Source: Kribbella turkmenica
GTDB lineage: Bacteria; Actinomycetota; Actinomycetes; Propionibacteriales; Kribbellaceae
Assembly: GCF_004348725.1 (NCBI RefSeq)
Contig: NZ_SMKR01000009.1
Span: 1-64,000 of the forward strand
DNA: 64,000 bases
Reading direction: 5' to 3'
The position numbers and the translations under genes are program-made. Positions within the stretch are counted from its first letter, which is position 1, and every line of letters starts with the position of its first letter. Below are positions 22,969 to 38,517 of this stretch, in pieces. The notes beneath the pieces are model-generated. The model saw nothing but the letters and a program-made list of their open reading frames with translations, did not search any database and was not told where the DNA came from.

Positions 22969-22974
22969 TAGGCT
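22969..22974 (+). promoter_or_regulatory. -10 element (TAGGCT) for the GH31 gene
   Basis: TAGGCT places the transcription start near 22981, inside the LacI operator that follows, a layout suited to direct repression. Confidence 0.45.
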
Positions 22975-22976
22975 TC

Positions 22977-22992
22977 GTCGAAGCGCTTCGAC
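22977..22992. promoter_or_regulatory. LacI operator 1 (before GH31)
   Basis: GTCGAAGCGCTTCGAC is a perfect 16-base palindrome with the central CG typical of LacI sites. The identical sequence occurs before the GH3 and LacI genes. Confidence 0.8.
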
Positions 22993-23017
22993 ATCCGCTG
23001 CAGGGAGGGCCCGCCCG

Positions 23018-25219
23018 ATGAAGTTCACCGACGGTTACTGGCAGCTGCGGGACGGGCTGACGCGGCTGCGGCCGGCCGAGGTCGAGAGCGTGCAGCCAGG
23101 GGATCGGGAGCTCACCGTGTTCGCGCCGGCCAAGCGGATCGAACGCCGCGGGGACACCCTCAACCAGCCGGTGTTCACGGTCACCTTCACCTCACCGGCC
23201 CGCGGTGTGATCGGGGTCCGGATCGCGCATCATCTCGGCGGGCTGCCCGCCCGGCCGTCGTACCGGCTGAACACCGGAGACGGCCACCCGGTCAAGGTGG
23301 AGATCGGTCCGGCCGAGGCGCGGCTGACGTCGGGTGAACTCAGCGTGGCCGTCGGTCTGGACGGACCGTGGGACGTGCGGTTCGAGCAGGACGGGCGGCC
23401 GGTGACGAATTCGGGGGCGCGCAGCCTCGGGCTGATCACCGACCAGGACGGCCGGCAGTTCCTGCACGAGCAGCTCGCGCTCGGCGTCGGCGAGACGATC
23501 TACGGCCTCGGCGAGCGGTTCGGCCCGCTGGTGAAGAACGGCCAGGTCGTCGACATCTGGAACGCCGACGGCGGCACGTCCAGCGAGCAGGCGTACAAGA
23601 ACGTCCCGTTCTTCCTGAGCAGCCGGGGGTACGGCGTCCTGGTCGACACCCCTGCCGAGGTGTCGTTCGAGGTCGGGTCCGAGGTCACGTCCCGCAACCA
23701 GTTCAGCGTCGAGGGCCAGGAACTGTCGTACCACGTCTTCGCCGGACCGACCGCGAAGGACGTGCTCCGGCGCTACACCGCGCTCACCGGCCGGCCCGCC
23801 CGGGTGCCGGCGTGGTCGATGGGGCTGTGGCTGTCGACGTCGTTCACCACCGACTACAGCGAGGAGACGACGAGCGCGTTCGTCGACGGCATGGCCGAGC
23901 GCGACCTGCCGTTGAGCGTCTTTCACTTCGACTGCTTCTGGATGCGGCAGTTCCACTGGTGCGACTTCGGCTGGGACCCGGTCGCGTTCCCCGACCCGGC
24001 CGGGATGCTGCGCCGGCTGAAGGACCGCGGCCTGCGGGTCAGTGTGTGGATCAACCCGTACATCGCGCAGCGGTCGGTCCTGTTCGAGGAGGGCCGCCGG
24101 CTCGGCTACCTGCTGAAGCGGCCGGACGGCTCGGTCTGGCAGTGGGACATGTGGCAGGCGGGCATGGCGATCGTCGACTTCACCAACCCGGACGCCACCG
24201 CGTGGTACCGCTCGAAGCTGCAGACGCTCATCGACCTCGGCGTCGACTGCTTCAAGACCGACTTCGGCGAGCGGATCCCGACCGATGTCGTCTGGTTCGA
24301 CGGTTCGGACCCGCGGCGGATGCACAACTACTACGCGCACCTCTACAACGAGGCGGTCTTCGGGCTGCTCGAGGAGAACCACGGCGAGGGCGAGGCCGTG
24401 CTGTTCGCCCGCTCCGCGACCGCCGGCGGTCAGCAGTTCCCGGTGCACTGGGGTGGCGACTGCGAGTCGACGTTCGAGGCGATGGCGGAGTCGTTGCGCG
24501 GCGGGTTGTCGCTGGCGGCGTCCGGATTCGGCTATTGGAGTCACGACATCGGCGGGTTCGAGGGCACGCCTGATCCCGCCATCTTCAAACGCTGGGTGCC
24601 GTTCGGGTTGCTCTCGTCGCACTCGCGGCTGCACGGCTCGTCGTCGTACCGGGTGCCGTGGGCGTTCGACGACGAGGCCGTCGACGTGCTGCGGAAGTTC
24701 ACCAAGCTGAAGATGTCGCTGATGCCGTACCTGATGACCGCGGCGGCCGAGGCGCACCGCGACGGCGTACCGATGATGCGGCCGATGATCCTGGAGTTCC
24801 CCGACGACCCGGGCGCCGCGTACCTGGACCGCCAGTACATGCTCGGCCCGGACCTCCTGGTCGCACCCGTGATGAGCTGGACCGGCGAGGTGTCGTTCTA
24901 CCTGCCCGCGGGCATCTGGACCGACCTGCTCAGCGGCGAGCGGTTCGCCGGACCACGCTGGGTCCAGCAGACCCACGGGTTCGGCTCTGTGCCGGTCCTG
25001 GTCCGCGAGGGCGCCGTCATCCCGATCGGTGCCGTCGACGACCGTCCGGAGTACGACTGGTCGGACAACGTCCAGCTCCGCTGGTTCGCCCCCACCGAAG
25101 GACGGACGACCGTCGCCAAGCTCCCGGACGCGGCGGTCGAGCTGACGTTCCGGGACGGCCAGGTGGGATCCCGCCTGATCGACGGCAGTTGCGAGCGCTA
25201 CACCGTCGAACTCGCCTGA
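23018..25219 (+). CDS. yicI: GH31 alpha-xylosidase (YicI type)
   Basis: 733 residues from ATG 23018, which has GGGAGGG 9 bases upstream. An N-terminal beta-sandwich (about 1-230) precedes the catalytic barrel. KTDFGERIPTDVVWFDGSDP carries the nucleophile D415 (D416 in E. coli YicI), and FPVHWGGDCES carries the acid/base D481 (D482 in YicI). The sequence around the nucleophile is almost that of YicI, which favours xyloside over glucoside activity. It is cytoplasmic, with no signal, and would remove alpha-linked xylose from xyloglucan oligosaccharides. A LacI operator covers its promoter. The 3' end overlaps the convergent GH3 gene by 22 bases. Confidence 0.92.
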   Translation: MKFTDGYWQLRDGLTRLRPAEVESVQPGDRELTVFAPAKRIERRGDTLNQPVFTVTFTSPARGVIGVRIAHHLGGLPARPSYRLNTGDGHPVKVEIGPAEARLTSGELSVAVGLDGPWDVRFEQDGRPVTNSGARSLGLITDQDGRQFLHEQLALGVGETIYGLGERFGPLVKNGQVVDIWNADGGTSSEQAYKNVPFFLSSRGYGVLVDTPAEVSFEVGSEVTSRNQFSVEGQELSYHVFAGPTAKDVLRRYTALTGRPARVPAWSMGLWLSTSFTTDYSEETTSAFVDGMAERDLPLSVFHFDCFWMRQFHWCDFGWDPVAFPDPAGMLRRLKDRGLRVSVWINPYIAQRSVLFEEGRRLGYLLKRPDGSVWQWDMWQAGMAIVDFTNPDATAWYRSKLQTLIDLGVDCFKTDFGERIPTDVVWFDGSDPRRMHNYYAHLYNEAVFGLLEENHGEGEAVLFARSATAGGQQFPVHWGGDCESTFEAMAESLRGGLSLAASGFGYWSHDIGGFEGTPDPAIFKRWVPFGLLSSHSRLHGSSSYRVPWAFDDEAVDVLRKFTKLKMSLMPYLMTAAAEAHRDGVPMMRPMILEFPDDPGAAYLDRQYMLGPDLLVAPVMSWTGEVSFYLPAGIWTDLLSGERFAGPRWVQQTHGFGSVPVLVREGAVIPIGAVDDRPEYDWSDNVQLRWFAPTEGRTTVAKLPDAAVELTFRDGQVGSRLIDGSCERYTVELA

Positions 25220-28020
25220 CGGTGTGGGACGTCGGCCGTCAGCCCGGCCAACACCACGTCGGGTGAGGAGAAGACGACGTAGACGGTGTGTACGCCGGTC
25301 TGCGTGAGCTCACCGGACAGGGCGGCCGGCCGGTGGTTCGGCGGAATCCGGAGGGTGTCCAGCAGGTCGCCGTGGAGCGGGTCGTCCAGGCGTAGCTCGA
25401 TCGAGGCCGGTGCGGCTCCGCGGTTGGCGACGGTTGCCTGGTACGGCGCCGGAGTGAGCTCGACGTCGTCGTAGCACACCCAGGCGCCGGCCTCCAGGGA
25501 GAGAACCGCGTCGCCCTGCTCCGGGGTCGCGGTGGTCAGGGTCAACGCGGAGTAATCGTCGAAGCTGGTGGCGGCGAGCCGGCTGATCGAGCGCGGCGGG
25601 ATGCGCTCGCCGTGGACGTCGAGGGTCGCGGCGAGCCGGATGTCCGTGCTGGAGCGGCCGACCATCACGCTGTGCCGGGCGGTCTCCACGCAGCGGCGGT
25701 CCCGGGTCACGTCCCAGAACCCCAGGTCCGCCGCGGCGATCGTCAGCTCGACCTCGGTGCTCTCACCGGGAAGCAGCGACAGCCGCCGGAAACCACGAAG
25801 TTGCCGCAGCGGTTGTTTGACCCGTGAACGCTGCTGGTGGGTGTAGAGCTGCGCGACCTCGCAACCTTCCCGGGTGCCGGTGTTCGTCACGGTGAAGGTG
25901 ACCCGGACCTCGCCGTCCGCCGGGATGGACGCCGGGCTGAGCCGCAGGTCGCCGTACGAGAAGGTGGTGTAGCTCAGCCCATGGCCGAACGAGTACAGCG
26001 GCAGTCCGCGGTAGTACAGGTACGTGGCGTCGGCCGCGATGATGTCGTAGTCGTGCAGGTCGGGCAGCTCGGCGGCCGAGTGGTACCACGTCTGCGTCAA
26101 CCGGCCGGCAGGGTCGGCGTCGCCGAACAGTACGTCGGCCAGAGCGCGACCGTACTCCTGCCCACCGTGGGCCGACCAGAGCACGGCCGGAAGATTCTGC
26201 TGGGCCCACCCGGCCGCGAACGGGTAGCTGCTCGTCATCACCAGGACTGTCCGCGGGTTCGCCGCGTGCACGGCCCGCAGCAGACGCTCCTGCGCCCTCG
26301 GCAGGTCCAGGTCGGTCCGGTCCTCGGTCTCCCGGCCGTTCACCATCGGATGATTGCCGAGGACAACGATCGCGACGCCGGCGGGTGCGGCGAGTCCGGC
26401 GGCGGCCGCCGCGCCGTCGACCAGGAGCTCGAGCTCGAAATCGGTCCCGGACTCGCCGAGCCCGACCGTGCCGTCCACCCGCAGGTAGCGGCCGCTGTTC
26501 AGGTGGAGCACCCGGACCCGGCCGCCGGTCTCGACCAGGCGGAAGGTCTGCTTCACCTCCCAGCCGTTCGGACCAGGCTGGTCGGCCACGAGCGAGCCGT
26601 CGTGGTTGACAGTCAGATGCTGCCCGTTCCGGACCGAGCGCAGTGCACATGCGCCACCACCCCAGTCGAACAGGTCGAACGCTTTGTGCTCGTCCTCGCC
26701 GGCGCGGAGGACGCCGTCGGCCCCGATCGTCAGGTACGACGCCGAACCGGCGACCCGCAACGCGATTCGGTCCACACCCTCGCAGTACTCGACCCGGCCG
26801 TCACCCAGTCGTTCGACCAGACCGTCGTACGCGGTGATCTGGTAGGGCAGTGTGCCGGCGTACCAGTCCGCGGAGAGTGTGTTGCCGAGCGGGCCGATGA
26901 CCGCGATCCGTTCGATCGTCGAGGCGTCCAGCGGAAGCACCCCGCACTCGTGCTTGAGCAGCACGATCGACTGCCGGGCGGCTTCCTGGGCGAGCCGGCG
27001 GTGGCCGGGACAGTTGACCAGGCCGGGTTCGAGGCCGCGGTACGGATCGAGCTCGGCCGGGTCGAACTCGCCGAGCCGGAAACGGATCGCCAGCGCGTGC
27101 CGGACCGCGGTGTCGACGTCGTCGAGGGTGATGAGGCCGCGGTCGATCGCGTCCGCGAGGTTCGCGATCGACGGCCCCGCGTCCGTGCCGTCCTGGGTGA
27201 AGCTGTCCACTCCGGCCTTGAGAGCGGCGGCGTACGCGGTCGCGCCGTCAGGGTGGTACCGCTGCAACCCGTACAGGTTCGCGGGCGCGTAGGCGTCGCT
27301 GACCACGAGCAGTTCGTCGCCGGTCCAGCCACGGAGCACGTCGTTGATGAGCGGGCTCAGGTGCGCGGGCCGCCCGTTCACCAGGTTGTACGACGGCATC
27401 ACCGCGACCGCCGCGCCGGCTTCGATCGGGGCCCGGAACGCGGGCAGTTCGTAGTCATGCAGCACGCGCGGTGGGAGGTTGCTGGAGGTCGTGCAGCGGT
27501 CGGTCTCGTTGTTGTAGGCGAGGAAGTGCTTGAGCGTCGGGGCGGTCCGCAGATGCGTGGGGTGATCGCCGGCCAGGCCCTGCCCGTACGCGGTGGCGAT
27601 CACGCCGGTCAGCCAAGGGTCCTCGGCGTACCCCTCCTCGTTGCGGCCCCAGCGGGGATCGCGGAGCGGGTTGACGACCGGCGCCCACACATTCAGGCCG
27701 ACCCCGGCCGGGTCCTTGTGGTGGAAGACCCGGACCTCGTCGCCGACCGCGGCACCGACGGCCCGGACCAGCTCGGGATTCCAGGTGGTGGCCAGTCCGA
27801 CGGCCTGCGGAAAGACGGTCGCCGGGCCGTGCCAGGCAACGCCGTGCAGCGCCTCGGTGCCGGTCCGGAACGCTTCCAGGCCGAGGCGATGGACCGGCGC
27901 TTGGTGCTGGTGCAGCAGGGCCAGCTTCTCGTCGGTGGTCAGCCGGCCGAGCAGGTCGTCGACGCGTGCGCGCAGCGGCCGGGCCGGGTCTCGGAACGGT
28001 GGGTCCTGGGGCGCACTCAT
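25198..28020 (-). CDS. GH3 beta-glycosidase with inserted beta-trefoil and C-terminal CBM6-like domain
   Basis: 940 residues. The N-terminal barrel has WAPVVNPLRDPRWGRNEEGY (about 112) and LKHFLAYNNET, with the nucleophile D242 in VVSDAYAP. The C-terminal alpha/beta sandwich follows (VVLGNHPMVNGRETEDRTDL). Inserted at about 425-540 is a fascin/ricin-like beta-trefoil (ASYLTIGADGVLRAG, GQHLTVNHDGSL, GRYLRVDG). A fibronectin-III-like domain follows (VTFTVTNTGTREGCEVAQLY), and the last 110 residues (WVCYDDVELTPAPYQATVAN) resemble CBM6. No signal peptide is present. It would remove beta-linked glucose or xylose from oligosaccharides, complementing GH31. Two LacI operators lie upstream. The start is ATG 28020 with a weak GGAG 10 bases away. 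Confidence 0.9.
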   Translation of the reverse strand: MSAPQDPPFRDPARPLRARVDDLLGRLTTDEKLALLHQHQAPVHRLGLEAFRTGTEALHGVAWHGPATVFPQAVGLATTWNPELVRAVGAAVGDEVRVFHHKDPAGVGLNVWAPVVNPLRDPRWGRNEEGYAEDPWLTGVIATAYGQGLAGDHPTHLRTAPTLKHFLAYNNETDRCTTSSNLPPRVLHDYELPAFRAPIEAGAAVAVMPSYNLVNGRPAHLSPLINDVLRGWTGDELLVVSDAYAPANLYGLQRYHPDGATAYAAALKAGVDSFTQDGTDAGPSIANLADAIDRGLITLDDVDTAVRHALAIRFRLGEFDPAELDPYRGLEPGLVNCPGHRRLAQEAARQSIVLLKHECGVLPLDASTIERIAVIGPLGNTLSADWYAGTLPYQITAYDGLVERLGDGRVEYCEGVDRIALRVAGSASYLTIGADGVLRAGEDEHKAFDLFDWGGGACALRSVRNGQHLTVNHDGSLVADQPGPNGWEVKQTFRLVETGGRVRVLHLNSGRYLRVDGTVGLGESGTDFELELLVDGAAAAAGLAAPAGVAIVVLGNHPMVNGRETEDRTDLDLPRAQERLLRAVHAANPRTVLVMTSSYPFAAGWAQQNLPAVLWSAHGGQEYGRALADVLFGDADPAGRLTQTWYHSAAELPDLHDYDIIAADATYLYYRGLPLYSFGHGLSYTTFSYGDLRLSPASIPADGEVRVTFTVTNTGTREGCEVAQLYTHQQRSRVKQPLRQLRGFRRLSLLPGESTEVELTIAAADLGFWDVTRDRRCVETARHSVMVGRSSTDIRLAATLDVHGERIPPRSISRLAATSFDDYSALTLTTATPEQGDAVLSLEAGAWVCYDDVELTPAPYQATVANRGAAPASIELRLDDPLHGDLLDTLRIPPNHRPAALSGELTQTGVHTVYVVFSSPDVVLAGLTADVPHRQASSTV

Positions 28021-28047
28021 CGGCGATCGACTCCACTGCGGCTGTGA

Positions 28048-28063
28048 GTCGAAGCGCTTCGAC
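28048..28063. promoter_or_regulatory. LacI operator 2 (before GH3, proximal)
   Basis: GTCGAAGCGCTTCGAC is a perfect palindrome 28 bases before the GH3 start and identical to the GH31 operator. Confidence 0.8.
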
Positions 28064-28080
28064 TGTCCTCCCGGCGCAGT

Positions 28081-28096
28081 ATCGAAGCGCTTCGAC
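28081..28096. promoter_or_regulatory. LacI operator 3 (before GH3, distal)
   Basis: ATCGAAGCGCTTCGAC differs from the other copies at one outer base. Its centre is 33 bases from the proximal copy, about three helical turns, so two repressor dimers could bind the same face around the GATACT -10-like sequence. Confidence 0.75.
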
Positions 28097-28208
28097 GGGC
28101 TGGGCGAAAAAATCCGTCTCGGTCAGTGACGACCCTGTGACGACGGAGTGATCAGAGGTTGGCATCCCAGGCCGGGCTGGTCAAGGCCTGGTAGACGCTT
28201 TCCGGAGT

Positions 28209-29402
28209 TCACCCGGGACTGGGCAGGTGACCGGTCGTCAAGGACGTGAGCGCTCGGGCGGTGGCGCCGAGGGGAGTTGCGGTGTCGGGGAACGTCGACG
28301 CGACGACGGTGCAAGCGCCGGCCTGCGGGGCGATGGCGGACTCGTGCAACGCCTTGGTGACGGCGGAGGACAGGTGCGCGGCCAGCAGGGCGTAGGCGCC
28401 GCCCAGGACGACGTACTCCGGGTTGAGGACGTTGACGAGGGCCGCGATGCCGTGGCCCAGGTGGGTCCCGGCTTCGGCGAGAACCTTGGTGACCGCCGCC
28501 TCGCCGTCGTCGGCCCGGCGGATCAGGTGCTCGAGCTGGATCTGCGGATCGGGATCGGTCAGGCCGTCGACGCGGGACAGGATCGCCGGCAGACCGGCGA
28601 GTGCCTCCAGACAGCCGCGACGCCCGCAGCCGCACAGCGGCCCGTCCGCGACCACGCGAAGATGGCCGATCTCCCCGATGTACCCGAGATGGCCTCGCAG
28701 CGGGCGGCCGTCGACGATGATGCCCGCGCCGACTCCGGTGTCACCGGCCAGGTGGATCAGGTTCTCCGAGCCGGCCAGTGGGCCGTAGAGATGCTCCGCC
28801 AGCACCGCGAGTGAGGCGTCGTTGTCCACGGTCACCGGGATGTCCGGCCGGCCGAGCGCGGCGGTGAGATCGGTCCGTAGCGGAACGTCGCGCCAGCCGA
28901 GGCCGGCCGCGAGCACGACCGAACCGTCACGGTTCACCAGGCCGGGCACGCCCACCGTGATCCCGAGGACCCGCCGGCCCGACGTCTGCACGGTCGAGAT
29001 CGCCCGCCGGGCCAGCGCCGCGACCGCGGCGACGGTCTTCGCCGGTCCGGCGCCGGCGCCCGGCCCCGCCCGGTGCCAGCGCAGCACCTGCCCGCCGGCG
29101 GTGTCGTAGGCGAGCGCGGTCAGGCCCCGGGCGCTCACCTCGAGCCCGATGGCGGCGTACGCCGAACCGTCCAGGACGAGCAGGGTCGCGGGCCGGCCGA
29201 CGTGATGCTGGGTCTGCCGGGTCTCGCGGACCAGCCGGCGGTCGAGCAGGTCGGCGACGATGCTGGTCACGGTCGCCTTGTTGAGTCCGGTCCCGGACGC
29301 GATCGCGGCCCGCGAGCACGGCGCCTGGCGGCGCAGGTAGCCCAGCACGGCAGCCAGATTGGTGGCGCGGATGTCCGTGTGGTCCGCGGTCTGTGAGGTC
29401 AA
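28209..29402 (-). CDS. ROK-family transcriptional repressor
   Basis: 397 residues from TTG 29402, the only in-frame start before the DNA-binding domain; its ribosome-binding site is weak. The N-terminal winged helix is NLAAVLGYLRRQAPCSRAAI, then GLNKATVTSIVADLLDRRLV. The ROK domain has the ATP-fold pattern DNDASLAVLAEHLYG, the GDTGVGAGIIVDG loop, and the zinc motif CGCGRRGCLEAL (about 285). It is divergent from the ABC-GH42 operon, with an imperfect palindrome between them, and is most likely the repressor that senses the imported sugar. Confidence 0.9.
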   Translation of the reverse strand: MTSQTADHTDIRATNLAAVLGYLRRQAPCSRAAIASGTGLNKATVTSIVADLLDRRLVRETRQTQHHVGRPATLLVLDGSAYAAIGLEVSARGLTALAYDTAGGQVLRWHRAGPGAGAGPAKTVAAVAALARRAISTVQTSGRRVLGITVGVPGLVNRDGSVVLAAGLGWRDVPLRTDLTAALGRPDIPVTVDNDASLAVLAEHLYGPLAGSENLIHLAGDTGVGAGIIVDGRPLRGHLGYIGEIGHLRVVADGPLCGCGRRGCLEALAGLPAILSRVDGLTDPDPQIQLEHLIRRADDGEAAVTKVLAEAGTHLGHGIAALVNVLNPEYVVLGGAYALLAAHLSSAVTKALHESAIAPQAGACTVVASTFPDTATPLGATARALTSLTTGHLPSPG

Positions 29403-29477
29403 GGTCCGTCCGTTCGGGTGGCCAGTGGTTCGGCGATGGCTCAGTTCTACACCTTGTCGTGCTCGCGCGCTTACGTT

Positions 29478-29506
29478 AATTTGTTTGGCTACCAGCCCAA
29501 CTAATT
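29478..29506. promoter_or_regulatory. Imperfect palindrome, probable ROK operator
   Basis: AATTTGTTTGGCT-ACC-AGCCCAACTAATT has 13-base arms with 11 matches. It is AT-rich in a GC-rich surround and lies between the ROK gene and the solute-binding-protein gene, just after a TACGTT -10-like element (29472-29477). Confidence 0.65.
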
Positions 29507-29534
29507 CTAGGCCAAGAACTCCAGGAGAGCCATC

Positions 29535-31202
29535 GTGACCGGACCAGTGGGCGGCGGGACCAGCCGCCGGACGTTCATCTCCCTGCTCGGCGCGGGCGCC
29601 GCGGCGGCCACCGGCGGCGTCACGCTGACCGGCTGCTCGGACGGCGGGTCCGGGTCGTCGACGGCCGGTCGCGCGGAGACCGAGGACAAGCTGTCCGGTC
29701 TGCTGCCGAAGCACATCCCGTACGAGTCGGTCCAGCCGGACCTGCCGGGGGGAAACGGTGCGGCGCCGGGATTCACGAAGTACCCGGCCGAACTGAAGCG
29801 GGCCGTGCCGGACAAGGCGGTCGCCAGCGGCAAGGAGGTGTCCGCGATGACCCCGCTGTGGAGCCCGGCGCCACCCGGTCTCGGCCACAACTCGTACTAC
29901 GACGTCAACAACGAGCGGATCGGCGCCCCGGTCCGGTTCAACATCCTGAACGGCAACGACTACGGCGACAAGCTCGGCCCGATTCTTGCTGCCGGCAACG
30001 TCCCCGAACTGCTCTGCGTGCCGGGCTGGAACATCTCGGGACTGACCCGGTTCGGGCAGGCGGCGGACAAGCTGTTCGAGGATCTGACACCGTACCTGGC
30101 CGGTGACAAGGCGGCGGCGTACCCGATGCTGGCCAATCTGCCGACGCGTGCCTGGGCCTACGGCGTCTGGAACTCGCAGCTGAAGGCCGTGCCGTTCCCG
30201 TCGGACGGCTTCCCGTGGGCGCTGTACTACCGCAAGGACCTGTTCGACCAGTTCGGTGCCGAGCCGCCGAAGAACGCCGACGACCTGCTCATGCTGGGCA
30301 AGGAGCTCACCGACGCCAAGGCGAACCGGTGGGCCTACGGTTCGGTCGCCGACGAGGTGATCCGGGCGTTCGGGGCGCCGGCGGACTGGCGCAAGGAGTC
30401 CGACGGCAAGCTGGTGAACAAGATCGAGACCCCGGAGTTCGAGGAGGCGGTGGCCTTCGTCCGGAAGCTGTTCCAGGCGGGTTACGTGCATCCCGAGGTC
30501 GTCGGCAACGCCGGCGCCGACCAGAACCCGCTGTTCGAGGGCGGCCGGCTGCTGATCCGGCAGAACGGGCTCGGCGGCTGGCACGAGTCGTTGCAGCGAC
30601 AGCTGCCGGTGAACCCGCAGTTCGAGCCGCAGGCGGTGCTGCCGTTCGCGCACGACGGCGGCACACCGATCACCTGGGGCGGCGACCCGGCCAACATCTT
30701 CACCTTCGTCAAGAAGGGCCTCGGCGAGGCCCGGGTGAAGGAGCTGCTCGGCGTCCTGAACTACACGTCCGCGCCCTTCGGCACCGAGGAGTACCAGCTG
30801 TACAGCTACGGCCAGGAGGGCAAGCACTACACCAGGCAGCCGTCCGGTGCACCGAAGCTCACCGCCCTGGGACAGAAGGAGGTCTCGCAGACCTACGTCT
30901 TCCTCGGCGGCCGGCCGGCGGCCATCACCCAGAGCGAGTACCCGGGGTACGTGGAGTCGATGAGTGCCTGGCAGAACGCCGCGGCCAAGGTCCAGCAGAA
31001 GAGCCTGTTCGACGGGATCCGGGTCGAGCAGCCGGCGAAGATGGCCGGGCTGGCGCAGCCGTTCGACGACGCGCTGCAGGACATCTTCCGGGGCCGGCGC
31101 CCGGTCGGCGAGCTGAAGACCGCGGTCAAGCAGTGGCAGACCAACGGCGGCAACGAGGGTCGCGACTTCTACGCGAAGGTGCTCAGTGACAACGGTCGCT
31201 GA
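29535..31202 (+). CDS. Sugar ABC transporter solute-binding lipoprotein (Tat type)
   Basis: 555 residues. The signal holds SRRTFISLLGAGAAAAT (twin arginine) and ends in the lipobox LTGC (Cys35), so the protein is exported folded and anchored outside the membrane. The large mature domain (PVRFNILNGNDYGDKLGPIL, WGGDPANIFTFVKKGL) fits the 500-plus-residue LplA/family-1 binding proteins for oligosaccharides. Two permeases and a GH42 enzyme follow with 4- to 17-base overlaps, forming one operon. The ATPase is not encoded here; actinobacterial importers often share an MsiK-type ATPase encoded elsewhere. GTG 29535 has AGGAGA 8 bases upstream. Confidence 0.9.
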   Translation: MTGPVGGGTSRRTFISLLGAGAAAATGGVTLTGCSDGGSGSSTAGRAETEDKLSGLLPKHIPYESVQPDLPGGNGAAPGFTKYPAELKRAVPDKAVASGKEVSAMTPLWSPAPPGLGHNSYYDVNNERIGAPVRFNILNGNDYGDKLGPILAAGNVPELLCVPGWNISGLTRFGQAADKLFEDLTPYLAGDKAAAYPMLANLPTRAWAYGVWNSQLKAVPFPSDGFPWALYYRKDLFDQFGAEPPKNADDLLMLGKELTDAKANRWAYGSVADEVIRAFGAPADWRKESDGKLVNKIETPEFEEAVAFVRKLFQAGYVHPEVVGNAGADQNPLFEGGRLLIRQNGLGGWHESLQRQLPVNPQFEPQAVLPFAHDGGTPITWGGDPANIFTFVKKGLGEARVKELLGVLNYTSAPFGTEEYQLYSYGQEGKHYTRQPSGAPKLTALGQKEVSQTYVFLGGRPAAITQSEYPGYVESMSAWQNAAAKVQQKSLFDGIRVEQPAKMAGLAQPFDDALQDIFRGRRPVGELKTAVKQWQTNGGNEGRDFYAKVLSDNGR

Positions 31203-32190
31203 GGACTCCGCGCGGACCGCGCCGGCCGGCACGAAGCGTCCGCCGGCGCCGCGGACCGGACGCCGGCGGGCACGTGGCGGGGCAGGATGGCGCCACCGGC
31301 TCCGGCGGGACTGGCCGCTGCTGCTGATGGTCCTGCCGGTGATCGTGCTGCTCGGTGTGTTCCACTACGTCCCGACGCTGGGCAACGTGATCGCGTTCCA
31401 GGACTACTCGCCGTACGTCGGCATCCGGGGCAGCGAGTTCGTCGGATTCGGCAACTTCGGCCGGCTGTTCTCCGAGCCGGCGTTCTGGCAGGCGGTCACG
31501 AACACGCTGACGATCACCGCCGTCCAGTTGGTGTTCTTCTTCCCGGTCCCGATCGGGCTCGCGCTGCTGCTGAACAGCGTGCTGTCGGTGCGGCTGCGGA
31601 CCCTGATCCAAGGAGTCGTCTACCTCCCGCACTTCTTCTCCTGGGTGCTCGTGGTCTCGTTGTTCCAGCAGATGATCGGCGGTGCCGGCCTGCTCGCCCA
31701 GTCGCTGCGGGCGAACGGGTACGAGGCCGTCGACCTGATGACCAGACCGGACACCTTCATCCTGCTGGTCACCGCACAGTCGATCTGGAAGGACGCCGGC
31801 TGGGGCATGATCGTGTTCCTGGCCGCGCTGTCCACGATCAACCCGGCGCTGTACGAGGCCGCCGCCGCCGACGGCGCGAACCGTCGCCGTCGCCTCTGGC
31901 ACATCACCCTGCCGGGACTGCGGCCGGTGATCGTGCTGCTGCTCATCCTGCGGCTCGGTGACGCGCTGACGGTCGGTTTCGAGCAGTTCATCCTGCAGCG
32001 CAGCGCGGTCGGTGGCGACGCGGCCGAGGTGCTCGACACCTACGTCTACTACCAGGGGCTGCTCGTCGGCGACTTCGGGTACGGCGCCGCGGCCGGCCTG
32101 TTCAAGGGTGTCGTCGGACTCGTCCTCGTCCTGGTGGCCAACCGATTCGCCCATCTCGTGGGCGAGCAGGGGGTGTACTCGCGCTCATGA
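31186..32190 (+). CDS. Sugar ABC transporter permease 1 (LplB type)
   Basis: 334 residues. The N-terminal tail of about 40 residues is Arg/Pro-rich, followed by six helices. The EAA loop EAAAADGANRRRRLWHITLP (about 225) docks with the ATPase. The gene overlaps the binding-protein gene by 17 bases and the second permease by 4. It pairs with permease 2 to form the channel for the oligosaccharide handled by GH42. Confidence 0.92.
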   Translation: MTTVAEDSARTAPAGTKRPPAPRTGRRRARGGAGWRHRLRRDWPLLLMVLPVIVLLGVFHYVPTLGNVIAFQDYSPYVGIRGSEFVGFGNFGRLFSEPAFWQAVTNTLTITAVQLVFFFPVPIGLALLLNSVLSVRLRTLIQGVVYLPHFFSWVLVVSLFQQMIGGAGLLAQSLRANGYEAVDLMTRPDTFILLVTAQSIWKDAGWGMIVFLAALSTINPALYEAAAADGANRRRRLWHITLPGLRPVIVLLLILRLGDALTVGFEQFILQRSAVGGDAAEVLDTYVYYQGLLVGDFGYGAAAGLFKGVVGLVLVLVANRFAHLVGEQGVYSRS

Positions 32191-33098
32191 CGACCTTGTC
32201 ACGACCGATCTGGGAAGAGGAGCCGAGCGGGATCGCCCGGCTGTCGAGGCCGCTCGTGCTGGCCCTGGTCGCGCTCGCGGTGACGTTCCCGTTGTACGTC
32301 GTCGTGGTGACCAGCCTGTCCACCACCGAGGCCGTGACGCGGGCCGGCGGGTTGGTCGTCGTACCCCGGGAACTGACGGTGGCGGCGTACGCGCAACTGC
32401 TGTCGGGTGGGGTGGTCACCCGGGCCCTCGTGATCAGCGTGCTGATCACCGTGGTCGGTACGGCGTTCAGTCTGGGAATCACCGTCCTGGCGGCGTACGG
32501 GCTCTCGCGGCCGGGCTCGCTGTTCCACCGGCCGTTGCTGTTCGTCGTCCTGCTCACGTTCCTGTTCGGCCCGGGCATCATCCCGAGCTACCTGGTGGTG
32601 AACGCGCTCGGGCTGATCGACAGCTACGCGTCGCTCGTCCTGCCGACCGCGGTGTCCGCGTTCAACCTGATCGTGATGCGGTCGTTCTTCATGGGCATCC
32701 CGGGGGAGCTGATCGACAGCGCGCGGATCGACGGCGCCGGGGAGTTCGCGATCCTGCGCCGGATCGTGCTGCCGCTGTCGAAGGCGGTGGTGGCGGTGGT
32801 CGGGCTGTTCTACGCGGTCGGCTACTGGAACGCGTTCTTCAACGCGTTGCTGTACATCAACGACAACAACAAGTGGCCGCTGCAGATGGTGCTGCGGACG
32901 TACATCGTGCAGGCCCAGGTGCTGCCGACCGGTGCCGGCGGGGTGGCTTCCGGGACCGGGCTGGGGATGGCGCCCGCGCCGAGTCTGGCGATCAAGATGG
33001 CGATCGTGGTGATCGCGATCGTCCCGGTCCTGCTGGTCTACCCGTTCATCCAGCGCCATTTCACCAAGGGCGTCATCATCGGCGCGGTCAAGGGATGA
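32187..33098 (+). CDS. Sugar ABC transporter permease 2 (YtcP type)
   Basis: 303 residues with six helices. The EAA loop is DSARIDGAGEFAILRRIVLP (about 175). VVVTSLSTTEAVTRAGGLVVVPRE near the N-terminus matches the carbohydrate-uptake CUT1 second permease group. It starts on the stop of permease 1 (ATGA). Confidence 0.92.
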   Translation: MTTLSRPIWEEEPSGIARLSRPLVLALVALAVTFPLYVVVVTSLSTTEAVTRAGGLVVVPRELTVAAYAQLLSGGVVTRALVISVLITVVGTAFSLGITVLAAYGLSRPGSLFHRPLLFVVLLTFLFGPGIIPSYLVVNALGLIDSYASLVLPTAVSAFNLIVMRSFFMGIPGELIDSARIDGAGEFAILRRIVLPLSKAVVAVVGLFYAVGYWNAFFNALLYINDNNKWPLQMVLRTYIVQAQVLPTGAGGVASGTGLGMAPAPSLAIKMAIVVIAIVPVLLVYPFIQRHFTKGVIIGAVKG

Positions 33099-33133
33099 TG
33101 CCAGGATGGGTCCGGCGGACGGGAAGGGCCGGC

Positions 33134-35056
33134 ATGACGCGACTGTGGTACGGCGGCGACTACAACCCGGAGCAGTGGGATCCGCAGGTGTGGAAGGAGG
33201 ACGCCGACCTGATGCGTCAGGCCGGCGTCAACCTGGTCACAGTCGGCGTCTTCTCCTGGTCGAGTCTCGAGCCGTCACCAGGGGAGTACCGGTTCGGCTG
33301 GCTGGACCAGGTTCTGGACCTGCTGCACGCCGCCGGCGTGAGTGTCGACCTGGCCACGCCGACCGCGTCGCCGCCGCCGTGGTTCAGCCGGCTGCACCCG
33401 GAGGCGTTGCCCGTGACCGCCGACGGCGTCCGGCTGACGCACGGCAGCAGGGACACGTACTGCGCCTGTGCGCCGGCCTACCGCTCAGCGGCCACGGGGA
33501 TAGCGCGTGCGCTTGTCGATCGGTACGGCGATCATCCGTCACTGGCGATGTGGCACGTCCACAACGAGTACGGAACCGTCTGCTACTGCCCGTTGGCGGC
33601 TGAGCGGTTCCGTGAGTGGCTGCGGGAGCGCTACGGCTCGCTCGATCGGCTGAACGCCGCGTGGACGACGGCGTTCTGGAGTCAGGGGTACTCCGGCTGG
33701 CAGGACGTGCAGCCGCCGCGCCGGACGCAATACCTGGTGAATCCGACGCAGTTCCTGGACTACCGGCGGTTCTGGTCGGACGAGTTGCTGGCGGCGTACC
33801 TGGAGCAGAAGGCGGTCATCCGGGAGCGGTCGTCGTTGCCGGTGACCACGAACTTCGTGTTCGGCGGCTGGGTGCCGGTGAACCATGCCCGCTGGGCCGC
33901 GGAGGTGGATGTCGTTGCCATCGACCACTATCCGACCCGGACCGATGCCGGCGCCGAGGAGCAGACCGCCTTCGGTGCCGACCTCGCCCGGTCGTGGGCC
34001 GGCGGGAGACCGTGGCTGTTGATGGAGCAGGCGGCGGGAACGCTCGACGACGGGAAACGCCTGCACACCAAGGAGCCCGGACGGATGGCGCGGCACAGCC
34101 TGTCGCACATCGCCCGCGGGTCCGCCGGAGCGTTGTTCTTCCAGTGGCGGGCGTCGCGTGGCGGTTCCGAGGTGTACCACTCGGCGCTGGTGCCGCACGC
34201 CGGTCCGTCCTCGCGGATCTTCCGTGAGGTGGTCGCGCTGGGTTCGCTGCTGCCGTCGCTGGCGGAGGTCGCGGACGCCGAGGTCGTCGCCGATGTCGCC
34301 GTACTGTGGGACGTCGAGTGCTGGTGGGCGATGCAGGGGACGCATCTGCCGTCGTCCTCGCTCGACTACCTGTCGGCGGTGCAGGACGCGCATCGGCACT
34401 TCTGGCGTGCGGGAGTGACTGTCGACTTCGCGGAGCCGTCGGCGGACCTGTCGTCGTACCGGCTCGTCGTGGTGCCGTCCTTGTACCTGATCAGCGACGA
34501 GGCGGCCGCATCGCTGGCCGCCTATGTCGAGCGCGGCGGCCAGTTGGTGGTCGGGTACTTCAGCGGAATCGTCGACCCCGACGCGCGGGTCCGGCTCGGT
34601 GGCTATCCGGGCGCCTTCACAGCCTTGCTGGGTGTTCGGGTGGAGGAGTTCCACCCGCTCACCGAGGACGGTGAGGTCCAGTTGTCGTCCGGCGGGCGTG
34701 GGCGGGTGTGGAGCGAGGACGTCGAGGCGGTCTCGGCCGAGGTCGTCGACCGGTACGTCGGGGGAGTGCTCGACGGGAAGCCGGCGATCACCCGCCGCCG
34801 GGTCGGGGCCGGGATCGCGTGGTACGTGTCGACGTCGGTCGACGTCGACACGGCTGCCGGGTTGTTCGGCCTGACCGGATCGGCGGTGGAGACGGTTCGG
34901 CGTCGCTCCGGCGACACGACCTGGACGTTCCTGGTCAACCATGGTGCGTCCGAGGTCGTCGTGCCGATCGCCGGCGTCGAGCTGATCTCAGGCTCGGCGG
35001 TCGACGGTTCGCTCGCCTTGGCCGGTGGTGGTGTCGCTGTCGTCCGCTCGCCCTGA
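33134..35056 (+). CDS. GH42 beta-galactosidase
   Basis: 640 residues from ATG 33134; ATG 33095, overlapping the permease stop, is in frame, but the conserved N-terminus LWYGGDYNPEQWD fits the later start, which has GGGAAGGG upstream. E145 in WHVHNEYG is the acid/base and E298 in LLMEQAAG the nucleophile. A Cys cluster at about 113-155 (YCACAP, CYCP) matches the zinc site of many GH42 enzymes. The trimerisation domain (about 390-580) and a small C-terminal beta domain complete the family length. It is cytoplasmic and would hydrolyse beta-galactosides brought in by the linked ABC importer. The last 69 bases overlap the convergent LacI gene. Confidence 0.92.
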   Translation: MTRLWYGGDYNPEQWDPQVWKEDADLMRQAGVNLVTVGVFSWSSLEPSPGEYRFGWLDQVLDLLHAAGVSVDLATPTASPPPWFSRLHPEALPVTADGVRLTHGSRDTYCACAPAYRSAATGIARALVDRYGDHPSLAMWHVHNEYGTVCYCPLAAERFREWLRERYGSLDRLNAAWTTAFWSQGYSGWQDVQPPRRTQYLVNPTQFLDYRRFWSDELLAAYLEQKAVIRERSSLPVTTNFVFGGWVPVNHARWAAEVDVVAIDHYPTRTDAGAEEQTAFGADLARSWAGGRPWLLMEQAAGTLDDGKRLHTKEPGRMARHSLSHIARGSAGALFFQWRASRGGSEVYHSALVPHAGPSSRIFREVVALGSLLPSLAEVADAEVVADVAVLWDVECWWAMQGTHLPSSSLDYLSAVQDAHRHFWRAGVTVDFAEPSADLSSYRLVVVPSLYLISDEAAASLAAYVERGGQLVVGYFSGIVDPDARVRLGGYPGAFTALLGVRVEEFHPLTEDGEVQLSSGGRGRVWSEDVEAVSAEVVDRYVGGVLDGKPAITRRRVGAGIAWYVSTSVDVDTAAGLFGLTGSAVETVRRRSGDTTWTFLVNHGASEVVVPIAGVELISGSAVDGSLALAGGGVAVVRSP

Positions 35057-36043
35057 CGAGCCGCGGGCGGTGAACTCCGGCGGCAGCAGCGTCAACTCGG
35101 GTGCCTCTGCGCCGGACAGCTTGGTGATCAGGGACTCGACCGCCAGTGCGCCGATCCGTTCGGCCGGGATGGTGACGGACGACAACTGCGGCACCTGCCG
35201 CTCGGCGACGTCGTCCGCGCAGATCGCCACCAGCGACATGTCCTCGGGAACGCGTCGTCCGAGTCGCCGCAGGACGTCGAGCAGCGGGCCGATGATCGGC
35301 TCGTTCTGCACGACGAGCCCGGTGAGGTCCGGGTGATCGTGCAGCAGACGCTCGACGGTGCCGAGGACGGCGGCGAACGTGTGCTCGCACGGGGTCTCGA
35401 CCCCGACGACGCCCCGTTGTCCGGCGGCTTCGGCGAATCCGGTCAGGGTGCGCTGGGCGAAGCCGGTCTGACGTTCGTACACGGCGGACGGCGTACCCAG
35501 CAGGGCCATCGAGCGGTGGCCGAGGTCGGCCAGGTGGTCGACGCAACGGGCGCCCGCGGCAACGAAGTCGAGGTCGATGCAGGTCAGGCCCTCGGAGTCG
35601 GCCGGGTAGCCGATGAGCACCGACGGCATCGGCAGCTCACGCAGGACCGGAACCCGTTCGTCGTCGAGCTCGACGTCCATCACGACCAGCGCGTCCACCA
35701 GCGAGCTCTGCGCGACCCGCTGCAGCCCCTCCGGGCCCTCGTCGGCGGTCAGCAGCAGGACGTCATGGTCGTACCGGCGGGCGGTGGTCACCACCGCGGC
35801 GGCGAACTGCATCATCACCGGGACGTGCATGCCGGTGCGCAGCGGGATCACCAGCGCGAGCACGTTGGAGCGCTGGCTGGCGAGCGCCCGGGCACTCGCG
35901 TTCGGGCGGTAGCCGAGCGCGCGGACGCTGCGCTGCACGCGCTCACGGGTGTCGGACGAGATCGACCGCTTTCCGCTGAGCACGTAGGAGACCGTGCTGG
36001 CCGCAACCCCGGCGTGCCGGGCGACGTCCGCGATCGTGACCAC
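34988..36043 (-). CDS. LacI-family transcriptional repressor
   Basis: 351 residues from GTG 36043 (GGGAG 9 bases upstream). The helix-turn-helix TIADVARHAGVAASTVSYVL, then SGKRSISSDTRERVQRSVRALGY, is canonical, followed by the hinge ASARALASQRS. The sugar-binding domain (about 60-335) ends in an unusual acidic, Ser/Thr-rich tail of about 25 residues that is encoded opposite the GH42 end. The palindrome at 36066-36081 lies in its own promoter and is identical to those before GH31 and GH3. It therefore probably represses itself and those enzymes, with a xyloglucan-derived sugar as inducer (inference). Confidence 0.9.
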   Translation of the reverse strand: MVTIADVARHAGVAASTVSYVLSGKRSISSDTRERVQRSVRALGYRPNASARALASQRSNVLALVIPLRTGMHVPVMMQFAAAVVTTARRYDHDVLLLTADEGPEGLQRVAQSSLVDALVVMDVELDDERVPVLRELPMPSVLIGYPADSEGLTCIDLDFVAAGARCVDHLADLGHRSMALLGTPSAVYERQTGFAQRTLTGFAEAAGQRGVVGVETPCEHTFAAVLGTVERLLHDHPDLTGLVVQNEPIIGPLLDVLRRLGRRVPEDMSLVAICADDVAERQVPQLSSVTIPAERIGALAVESLITKLSGAEAPELTLLPPEFTARGSSGRADDSDTTTGQGERTVDRRA

Positions 36044-36065
36044 TGTGGCGCGCTCCCTCGTCCCG

Positions 36066-36081
36066 GTCGAAGCGCTTCGAC
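36066..36081. promoter_or_regulatory. LacI operator 4 (before lacI-type gene)
   Basis: GTCGAAGCGCTTCGAC lies 23 bases before the repressor start codon, pointing to autoregulation. Confidence 0.8.
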
Positions 36082-36090
36082 CCGCTGGAC

Positions 36091-36121
36091 AAACAAAAGC
36101 AAGGAGAGTGGATCTCCTTGC
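36091..36121 (-). terminator. Intrinsic terminator after the GH36 unit
   Basis: On the minus strand, GCAAGGAGA-TCCAC-TCTCCTTGC (perfect 9-base arms) is followed by TTTTGTTT. It would stop leftward transcription from GH36 before it enters the LacI promoter. Confidence 0.7.
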
Positions 36122-36243
36122 CTGTTTCAACTTATAGCGCAGGTGGAGGCTTGCCGCAAGGCCCGGGGTGCGCCGGAGAATCGCCGCTCGTGACTGGATA
36201 TCAGCCGGCTCAGCCGGCGGCCGGACGACGTGGCGGCCGCGGG

Positions 36244-36519
36244 GTGACGGACGTCGACGTCCTGGTCGTCGGCGGTGGACCGGCGGGGTTGATGCTGGCG
36301 GGTGAGTTGCGGTTGGCAGGCGTGCGGGTGGCGGTGCTCGAGCGGGCACCGCGGCCGCGGGAGACGGCGAAGGCGAACGGCCTGGCCGGGCAGATCCTGG
36401 AGCTGCTGCGCGGACCGGCCGGCCGACGTGATGCTGATCCGGCCGGACGCCGTCGTCGCCTGGGCCGGTGACGAGCCGGCTGGTCCCGCGCTGCCGGGAC
36501 GCGCTCTCGACCTGGTTCA
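36244..36519 (+). pseudogene. FAD-dependent monooxygenase relic with internal deletion
   Basis: From GTG 36244, DVDVLVVGGGPAGLMLAGEL (the FAD-binding GxGxxG loop), then RLAGVRVAVLERAPRPRET and NGLAGQILELL form the first 55 residues of a PheA/TetX-type aromatic monooxygenase. At about 36412-36430 the match jumps, in another frame, to PADVMLIRPDAVVAWAGDEP, the known C-terminal end of the same family. Some 400 internal residues are missing and the frame is broken. The relic runs up to the GH36 stop. Only its two ends survive. Confidence 0.7.
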
Positions 36520-38517
36520 GCGGGTGAGGCGCAGGATCCGGGCCGACGGCTCGGCGACGTCCGTCGTGACGGTGAGGTCGTCGCCCGACCAGGAGTAGCT
36601 CCAGCCGCCGGGAGCGGCCGGGAAGAGGTGGTCGATTGTGGCCGGAGGCAACGAAAGGGTCAGTTCGGACGGGCCGGCGACGCGGTGCCACAGGGCCAGG
36701 TAGGTGACGGTGTCGTTGCCCAGGGCCAGCGCGATCCAGTCGTCGTCCCAGTTCGGGAGACCCAGCGGCCAGCTCGGGACCAGGGTCTCCACGTCCTTCA
36801 GGACGACGCGATGAGCGGCGATCGCGGACCGGACCAGCTCCAGCTCGGCGCCGGTCATGTGGTTGAGGTGTCCGGACAGGTAGAGCCGGCCCGGGATGCC
36901 GTTGACCAGCGCGAGCGTGAACTCCTCGCGCGTGGTCCCGGTGATCGGATAGGCCCAGTGCCCGGCCTGTTCGGGCAGTACGCCGGCCGGGGCCGCCGCG
37001 GTGATCGGTGCGTAGAGCAGCGGGTGCTGCTGGTCGGAGGTCGACTGCAGATGAAGCCGGGACAGCATCGCGTAGTCCATCCGCATGGCTCCGGAGGCGC
37101 AGTTCTCGATCAGCAGCTCCGGGTGGCGGGCCTGCAGCGCGTCCAGCCAGCTGAGCACGGCCCGGTTGTGCTCGAGCAGTCCCTGGCCGAGCGACGTACC
37201 GCCCTTGTCGGTGCCGGGCCCGGTCATCGTGTTGTTGTCGAACTTGAAGAACCCGATGCCGAAGTCGCTCACCAGCCGGTCGACCGTGTCGTCGAGGTGC
37301 CGGCGGGCGAGCGGGTTGCGGAGGTCGAGCAGGTAGCGGCCGTGCTCGGCGACCCGGATCCCGCGCCGGGTGAGGAAGGCCTCGTCGGGCAGTGCCGACG
37401 CGATCGGCGCGTGCACGCCGATCACCTCGGGCTCCAGCCACAGGCCCGGCACCAGCCCGCGGTCGTGGATCCGGTCGATCACCTCGCCGAGACCCTTCGG
37501 GAAGCGGGTGGCCGACGGCTGCCACGCGCCGACGGTGCTCCACCAGTGGCCTTCGGCGTACCAGCCGGCGTCGATGCAGAAGTAGTCCGCGCCGGCCTCG
37601 GCCGCGGCGTCGATCAGCGGCAGCAGCTTCTCGGTCGTCGGATCGCCCATCAGTGTGTTCATGTAGTCGTTGAAGACCACCGGCATCCGGTCGTCGACCC
37701 GGCGCCGCCGCCGGAGCGTACGGCGCTGCCGGGTGAGGGCCGCGAACACACTGTCCCGGTCGGTGCCGGCGACGAGTGAGACCGGCACGCTGGTGAACGG
37801 CTCGTCCACCGTGATCCGGACGGTCCACTGGTGTTCCTGGTCGGTCGGTCCGCTGAGCAGGAGGTAGCCGCCCCGCCGGTTCTCACCGAGCTCGAAGTGC
37901 CACGGCCCGTTGTGCTCGATCTGCCAGCCGAGCGCGGACGGCGTACCCCGATCGACCAGTACGCCGACGGGCAGGCGCTCACCGCTCGACCACGACCCGG
38001 TGCTCGTCACCGCGTGCCGGCTCTTCGAGACCGGGTGGTGCGGATCCCGGACGATCTCCGGGACCCGGCCGGACCGCAGTGGCTCGACCGACCAGCGGTT
38101 CTCGGCCATCCAGTCGTTGGCCGCCGAGTACAGGTCGGCGTCGACCGACTCGAGGCCGACGACGAGGGAGGAGAGGAAGTCCAGTTCCAGCGATCCCGGT
38201 CCGGACATCGACGCCTCGGACCAGGTGCGGACGCCGGCCCTGGCCTCGAACACGCTGGTCACCCGCAGCCCGGTCTCGACATCCTCCTGCACGATGCGCA
38301 GCGTCGACCCGTCGTCGTCATGGCGCACGTACCGCAGCCGCTGACCCAGGATCGTGTCGACGTGCCGGCTGGTCCCGGGGAAGCGCCCGTACCCGAGCGC
38401 CGACACCTCGACCAACGGCTGGCTCAGCTCAGCGGCGGCCCCGGCGGTCACCCGCACCGGACCGTCGTCGAGAGTGAAGGTCAAGGACAGGTCGGGCGTG
38501 CTCCAGCGCAGGTTCAT
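36517..38517 (-). CDS. GH36 alpha-galactosidase
   Basis: 666 residues. The N-terminal beta-supersandwich spans about 1-280. In the barrel, FFKFDNN carries the nucleophile D427 and STSDQQH the acid/base D495. ENCASGAMRMDYAM (about 475) replaces the usual CSGGGRFD. VFNDYMNTLMGDPTTEKLLP is the usual barrel entry. It is cytoplasmic and would remove alpha-galactosyl units from raffinose-type or galactomannan/xyloglucan oligosaccharides. Its start overlaps the stop of the (broken) EamA gene by 4 bases, so the two were an operon. A terminator lies 400 bases beyond its end. Confidence 0.9.
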   Translation of the reverse strand: MNLRWSTPDLSLTFTLDDGPVRVTAGAAAELSQPLVEVSALGYGRFPGTSRHVDTILGQRLRYVRHDDDGSTLRIVQEDVETGLRVTSVFEARAGVRTWSEASMSGPGSLELDFLSSLVVGLESVDADLYSAANDWMAENRWSVEPLRSGRVPEIVRDPHHPVSKSRHAVTSTGSWSSGERLPVGVLVDRGTPSALGWQIEHNGPWHFELGENRRGGYLLLSGPTDQEHQWTVRITVDEPFTSVPVSLVAGTDRDSVFAALTRQRRTLRRRRRVDDRMPVVFNDYMNTLMGDPTTEKLLPLIDAAAEAGADYFCIDAGWYAEGHWWSTVGAWQPSATRFPKGLGEVIDRIHDRGLVPGLWLEPEVIGVHAPIASALPDEAFLTRRGIRVAEHGRYLLDLRNPLARRHLDDTVDRLVSDFGIGFFKFDNNTMTGPGTDKGGTSLGQGLLEHNRAVLSWLDALQARHPELLIENCASGAMRMDYAMLSRLHLQSTSDQQHPLLYAPITAAAPAGVLPEQAGHWAYPITGTTREEFTLALVNGIPGRLYLSGHLNHMTGAELELVRSAIAAHRVVLKDVETLVPSWPLGLPNWDDDWIALALGNDTVTYLALWHRVAGPSELTLSLPPATIDHLFPAAPGGWSYSWSGDDLTVTTDVAEPSARILRLTR

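Follow-up and report, generated by a model that had tools for sequence, protein, structure and literature searches.

A palindrome as the probable operator of a LacI-family regulator of xyloglucan genes in Kribbella turkmenica

Described regulators and how the Kribbella locus compares

The best-studied actinobacterial parallel to the system considered here is CebR/CelR of Streptomyces and Thermobifida, a LacI-family regulator for cellobiose and cello-oligosaccharides with the operator TGGGAGCGCTCCCA (PMC4898821, PMC3377646). Our subject is a LacI-family protein and a palindrome that occur together in an island of sugar genes in Kribbella turkmenica, within a stretch of 64,000 nucleotides (contig NZ_SMKR01000009.1, positions 1 to 64,000) that is called the window below. 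Kribbella is a soil bacterium, and xyloglucan, the proposed substrate, is a common sugar polymer of the plant cell wall. Both systems comprise an actinobacterial LacI-family repressor, a 14-bp palindrome with an AGCGCT center before glycosidase genes, and a sugar ATP-binding cassette (ABC) transporter nearby. However, the Kribbella operator is TCGAAGCGCTTCGA and not TGGGAGCGCTCCCA. Its arms read TCGA, whereas those of the CebR/CelR site read TGGG, and there are three differences per half-site (PMC4898821). The targets also differ, as the Kribbella sites precede genes of glycoside hydrolase (GH) families 31 and 3 and, in relatives, GH12 and GH5, in contrast to the cellulase set of CebR/CelR, and the transporter in Kribbella is apparently under a ROK-family protein.

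Other described systems are alike in substrate. In Thermotoga maritima, the glo cluster for xyloglucan oligosaccharides, which includes cel74, has been predicted to be under a local regulator of the LacI family, GloR (PMC3750489). GloR shares with the Kribbella island the regulator family, a xyloglucan-oligosaccharide cluster with an ABC transporter and GH74, and a second regulator on the cluster (CelR in Thermotoga), but it belongs to another phylum, its role is a prediction, and the likeness is one of description. XygS/XygR of Ruminiclostridium cellulolyticum, as cited in PMC10766802 and PMC8579813, governs xyloglucan degradation, import and catabolism; according to these citing papers it is a two-component activator, unlike a LacI repressor. 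AxuRS and XylQ of Caldicellulosiruptor bescii (PMC8579813) and XylR of Firmicutes (PMC2873477) are predicted alpha-xyloside regulators that would control alpha-xylosidase and alpha-xyloside transport genes. AxuRS and XylQ are, however, of the AraC type, and the XylR group comprises different regulators that recognize other DNA motifs. We found no description of this actinobacterial regulon and no xyloglucan regulator in Actinobacteria in the literature searched, outside of which lay subscription papers and regulon databases. Likewise, no paper in that search had the palindrome in a relevant context; one on S. scabies has the shorter GAAGCGCTTC (PMC5332605).

Operator sites and the LacI gene

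It is highly probable that the LacI protein encoded at 34988-36043 has this palindrome as its operator; the protein would act as a local repressor for xyloglucan use. Three copies match the 16-mer GTCGAAGCGCTTCGAC exactly: O1 (22977-22992), 25 bp before the ATG of the GH31 gene (23018), O2 (28048-28063), upstream of the GH3 gene, and O4 (36066-36081), 22 bp before the GTG of lacI (36043, minus strand), where it would serve autoregulation. The remaining copy, O3 (28081-28096), is also upstream of GH3 and reads ATCGAAGCGCTTCGAC, with a single mismatch to the 16-mer and the 14-base core exact. The sites are listed without a strand. An initial annotation of the window had reported these four copies and supposed that the palindrome was absent elsewhere, and both statements were confirmed by a window search, which gave no further match at up to three mismatches. 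A search through all 351 contigs of the assembly (7,447,142 bases) at up to one mismatch, which that annotation had proposed as a check, returned only the four island sites and none away from sugar genes; the reversed control gave zero. The 14-base core TCGAAGCGCTTCGA has four exact sites in the genome, all in promoters, where about 0.02 would be expected in a random genome of the same size and G+C content. There were no one-mismatch cores and 39 two-mismatch cores, compared to 50 two-mismatch cores in the reversed control, so the two-mismatch level is background. On these counts, a wider regulon through weaker sites in K. turkmenica was rejected. With its central CG and its position at or near the promoters of lacI itself and of sugar genes, the palindrome has the character of a LacI/GalR-type operator.

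The placement of the sites was compared with that in relatives. O1 is preceded by the -10-like hexamer TAGGCT (22969-22974). When 16 Kribbella GH31 promoters were aligned, the operator was the only long invariant block and stood directly after a TAnnnT -10-like hexamer, and most of the other Kribbella promoters have a conserved TTGAC-N18-TAnnnT beside it. The site therefore covers the expected transcription start, as had been suggested for the first copy. The transcription start is the usual location of LacI repressor sites. A consensus promoter scan at the three promoters found nothing. O2 and O3, upstream of the GH3 ATG (28020, minus strand), are 33 bp apart. This spacing had been reported correctly but is not special, as most other Kribbella have 34-50 bp between the two sites and other genera have 60-191 bp. 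Since it varies from 33 to 191 bp, no fixed helical phase or looping geometry is implied, and the idea of two operators held at a constant 33 bp for looping was rejected.

Genes were called from codon-position G+C content and Pfam. The lacI gene (34988-36043, minus strand) encodes a LacI/GalR-family repressor of 351 amino acids, with a helix-turn-helix (HTH) domain at residues 3-48 (PF00356, 1.9e-15), the recognition helix AASTVSYVLSGK, and a periplasmic-binding-protein-like domain (PF13377, 7.1e-27, and PF00532). In a survey of 38 Kribbella genomes, an orthologue of this protein (74-100% identity) was found in 32, and the same 32 genomes hold 2-7 exact cores each, 133 in total. The six genomes without the orthologue have no exact core. 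The chance of this co-occurrence (32/32 versus 0/6) is 3.6e-7 if the genomes are independent; they are related, so shared ancestry contributes. In all 16 Kribbella loci, lacI has a core upstream of it, as it does in 49 of 64 other actinobacterial loci, among them loci from Streptomyces and Thermomonospora. Some of the 15 loci without it are from Micromonospora and Virgisporangium, where lacI directly follows the GH3 gene that carries the site. Overall, Streptomyces, Micromonospora, Thermomonospora and others also have the operator ahead of lacI, GH3 or both. Together, the restriction of the 16-mer to the island and the way that sites follow the orthologue through the genus support the earlier proposal of one LacI protein and one operator for its own gene, GH31 and GH3. 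One LacI orthologue (G008:C21, locus L162) has an in-frame TGA, which could reflect a pseudogene, a boundary effect or a sequencing error; its operators are retained.

Substrate of the regulon and alternative readings

The initial annotation had suggested alpha-xylosides, and xyloglucan oligosaccharides in particular, as the substrate, and the enzymes now make xyloglucan a stronger candidate. The GH31 protein (23018-25219, plus strand; 733 amino acids, signal peptide not obvious by eye) is a predicted alpha-xylosidase of the YicI type. It matches the structure entries of Escherichia coli YicI at about 952 bits over residues 1-706 or 1-720, compared to 380 bits for the best solved entry that is not YicI, and it keeps the YicI active-site stretch KTDFGERIPTDVVWFDGSDP, or KTDFGER nucleophile motif. 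The description of this protein as YicI-like is thus borne out over its full length, and YicI is an alpha-xylosidase by known activity. The GH3 beta-glycosidase (25198-28020, minus strand; 940 amino acids, signal peptide not obvious by eye) has Fn3-like and CBM6 domains. Among solved structures, it is closest to beta-xylosidases and beta-glucosidases, and isoprimeverose-producing enzymes rank lower.

The same operator was found in other Kribbella before GH12 genes adjoining lacI, and before GH5, GH3 and ABC-transporter genes. The best solved match of the GH5 protein is the xyloglucanase 2jep (596 bits). Many relatives have a GH74 gene in the island, between permease 2 and GH42, whose best solved match is the xyloglucan hydrolase 2cn2. 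GH74 is present in 27 of the 38 Kribbella genomes. Each of these 27 belongs to the 32 that have this LacI, and the six genomes that lack the LacI have no GH74. Relatives of GH12 and GH74 are also near lacI in Streptomyces. GH74, GH12 and GH5 outside the cell and GH31, GH3 and GH42 inside it form a xyloglucan toolkit. In two other Kribbella loci (L154 and L160), the operator precedes another GH3 (50%) and an ABC transporter of the SBP_bac_5/oligopeptide type, which suggests that the regulon of some Kribbella includes a second transporter for oligosaccharides. In many Streptomyces loci (L066, L064 and others), the gene after the orthologous lacI and its operator encodes a more distant GH31 (30-32%), and GH12 and GH42 genes are close by.

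In searches that covered the GH74, GH5 and GH12 families, the K. turkmenica genome itself showed neither a GH74 nor a GH5 like those of its relatives. The genus-wide GH74 search served as a positive control for the absence of GH74, and the gene is missing from the gap at 33098-33134 where relatives carry it. The sole GH12 of the genome is a distant one, and no operator lies close to its gene. This lack is one point that would fit a regulon for another alpha-glycoside or beta-galactoside (e.g., galactomannan or isomalto-oligosaccharides) to which xyloglucan is incidental, but in relatives GH12, the xyloglucanase-like GH5 and GH3 are under the same operator and GH74 is in the island. An alpha-galactosidase gene of family GH36 (36517-38517, minus strand; identified by Pfam) adjoins the island beyond lacI, yet it has no operator and was rejected as a regulon target. 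Similarly, GH42 enzymes are broad, but the GH31 enzyme is of a type whose known activity is alpha-xylosidase, and the more distant GH31 after lacI in Streptomyces is set against the GH12 and GH74 relatives near that gene. We therefore consider a different substrate unlikely.

Several observations weigh against reading the palindrome as the operator of this LacI protein for xyloglucan use. In the GH31 promoter of K. turkmenica, the alignment and promoter scan showed TAGGCT but no recognizable -35 element. Without the relatives' GH74 and GH5, this species may have something other than the polymer as its substrate. The six Kribbella genomes that lack the LacI orthologue also lack the GH3 gene, and so the sites may have gone with the island just as well as with the regulator. 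Two of these six (loci L167 and L168) keep the GH31-GH42 pair, about 80% and 70% identical to that of the window, behind a different LacI of 39% identity with the helix SxSTVSYxLTGT. The site there is GTCGAAGCGTTTCGAC, or a close variant in one genome, one base off the core, and near-identical sites may thus be readable by a paralogue.

Another possible explanation is that a different LacI paralogue, either a cellobiose repressor of the CebR/CelR type or the 39% protein, reads the palindromes in K. turkmenica. There would be many candidates, as 58 LacI-type HTH regions were read from the genome, but the recognition helix VAASTVSYVLSGK is in none of them except that of this LacI. The AGCGCT center is common to the CebR/CelR site, which nonetheless differs at three positions per half. 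The 39% paralogue has a near-identical recognition helix and would read a one-base variant in other Kribbella; against it stand the site before lacI itself in every Kribbella locus and its absence from all genomes without this LacI. We judge a different reader to be very improbable. Finally, although intergenic palindromic repeats can be mobile elements, it is hardly credible that the palindrome lacks a regulatory role and is just a repeat or a chance word, since each copy has different flanks, the site has persisted in promoters that diverged across actinobacterial families, and the genome-wide counts against an expectation of 0.02 reject a chance origin.

A probable second switch and the proposed mechanism

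The initial annotation had held that the regulator, its operator and its targets can be read in one island. This is so, but it overlooked three further parts of the same island, namely a regulator of the ROK family, the operon of an ABC transporter and a GH42 gene. The ROK-family regulator (28209-29450, minus strand; PF00480 2.3e-47, MarR_2 HTH 7.5e-07) has an uncertain start codon at about 29402-29450. The transporter operon on the plus strand consists of a lipoprotein-like solute-binding protein (29535-31202), which has no Pfam match and was assigned from its position and a lipobox-like signal, permease 1 (31186-32190, PF00528) and permease 2 (32187-33098, identified by Pfam), after which GH74 comes next in many relatives and is absent here. 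The GH42 beta-galactosidase (33134-35056, plus strand; 640 amino acids) was assigned by Pfam and homology. No LacI operator was found ahead of the transporter operon at up to three mismatches in the window search. Instead, the intergenic region between the ROK gene and the operon contains the palindrome TTAGTTGGGCTGGTAGCCAAACAAA (29480-29504, minus strand), a probable ROK operator. It is strongly conserved in 11 other Kribbella loci, less strictly or in part in three Micromonosporaceae loci, and zero were expected in shuffles. Judging from these sequence features, the transporter and GH42 are very likely under the neighboring ROK regulator in K. turkmenica, and the island probably has two switches, with import under the second one.

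Two further features lie between lacI and GH36. A terminator-like hairpin with a T tail is on the minus strand at 36097-36123 and was not seen in the other aligned Kribbella upstream regions. At about 36190-36500, a reading frame resembles by eye a truncated monooxygenase dependent on flavin adenine dinucleotide (VDVLVVGGGPAGLMLAGELRLAG...) and is possibly a gene remnant.

By analogy with the LacI family, the protein would repress its targets and be released by a sugar. Without inducer, a dimeric repressor would occupy the one GH31 site, the two GH3 sites and the one site in its own promoter, and would block transcription from these positions, which are at or just downstream of the likely start. 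Xyloglucan oligosaccharides would be imported by the ABC transporter of the island, and an oligosaccharide or breakdown product would bind the periplasmic-binding-protein-like domain, causing the repressor to leave the DNA. The cytoplasmic enzymes would then be made, with GH31 removing alpha-xylose, GH3 the beta-sugars of the backbone and GH42 the galactose. The transporter and GH42 would not be under the LacI operator in K. turkmenica, but under the ROK regulator.

Since its genome lacks the GH74 and GH5 of relatives, K. turkmenica may use oligosaccharides made by others. A broader proposal, to which we give somewhat less than even weight, is that xyloglucan use in Kribbella and some Micromonosporaceae is divided between two repressors, one of the LacI family that controls the debranching enzymes (in relatives also the secreted GH12 and GH5 xyloglucanases) and one of the ROK family that controls import and the removal of galactose, and that K. 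turkmenica is a scavenger of others' oligosaccharides that lost the secreted xyloglucanases and kept both switches. It is well supported that the LacI switch is real and widespread among relatives, but of a familiar kind. Sister species offer a neat case, as the same enzyme genes there stand behind a LacI paralogue whose operator differs by one base. In K. turkmenica, the regulator is readable from sequence together with its full set of operators and its targets, the prediction extends over several actinobacterial families, and the operator word may be used for annotating the xyloglucan genes of soil actinobacteria.

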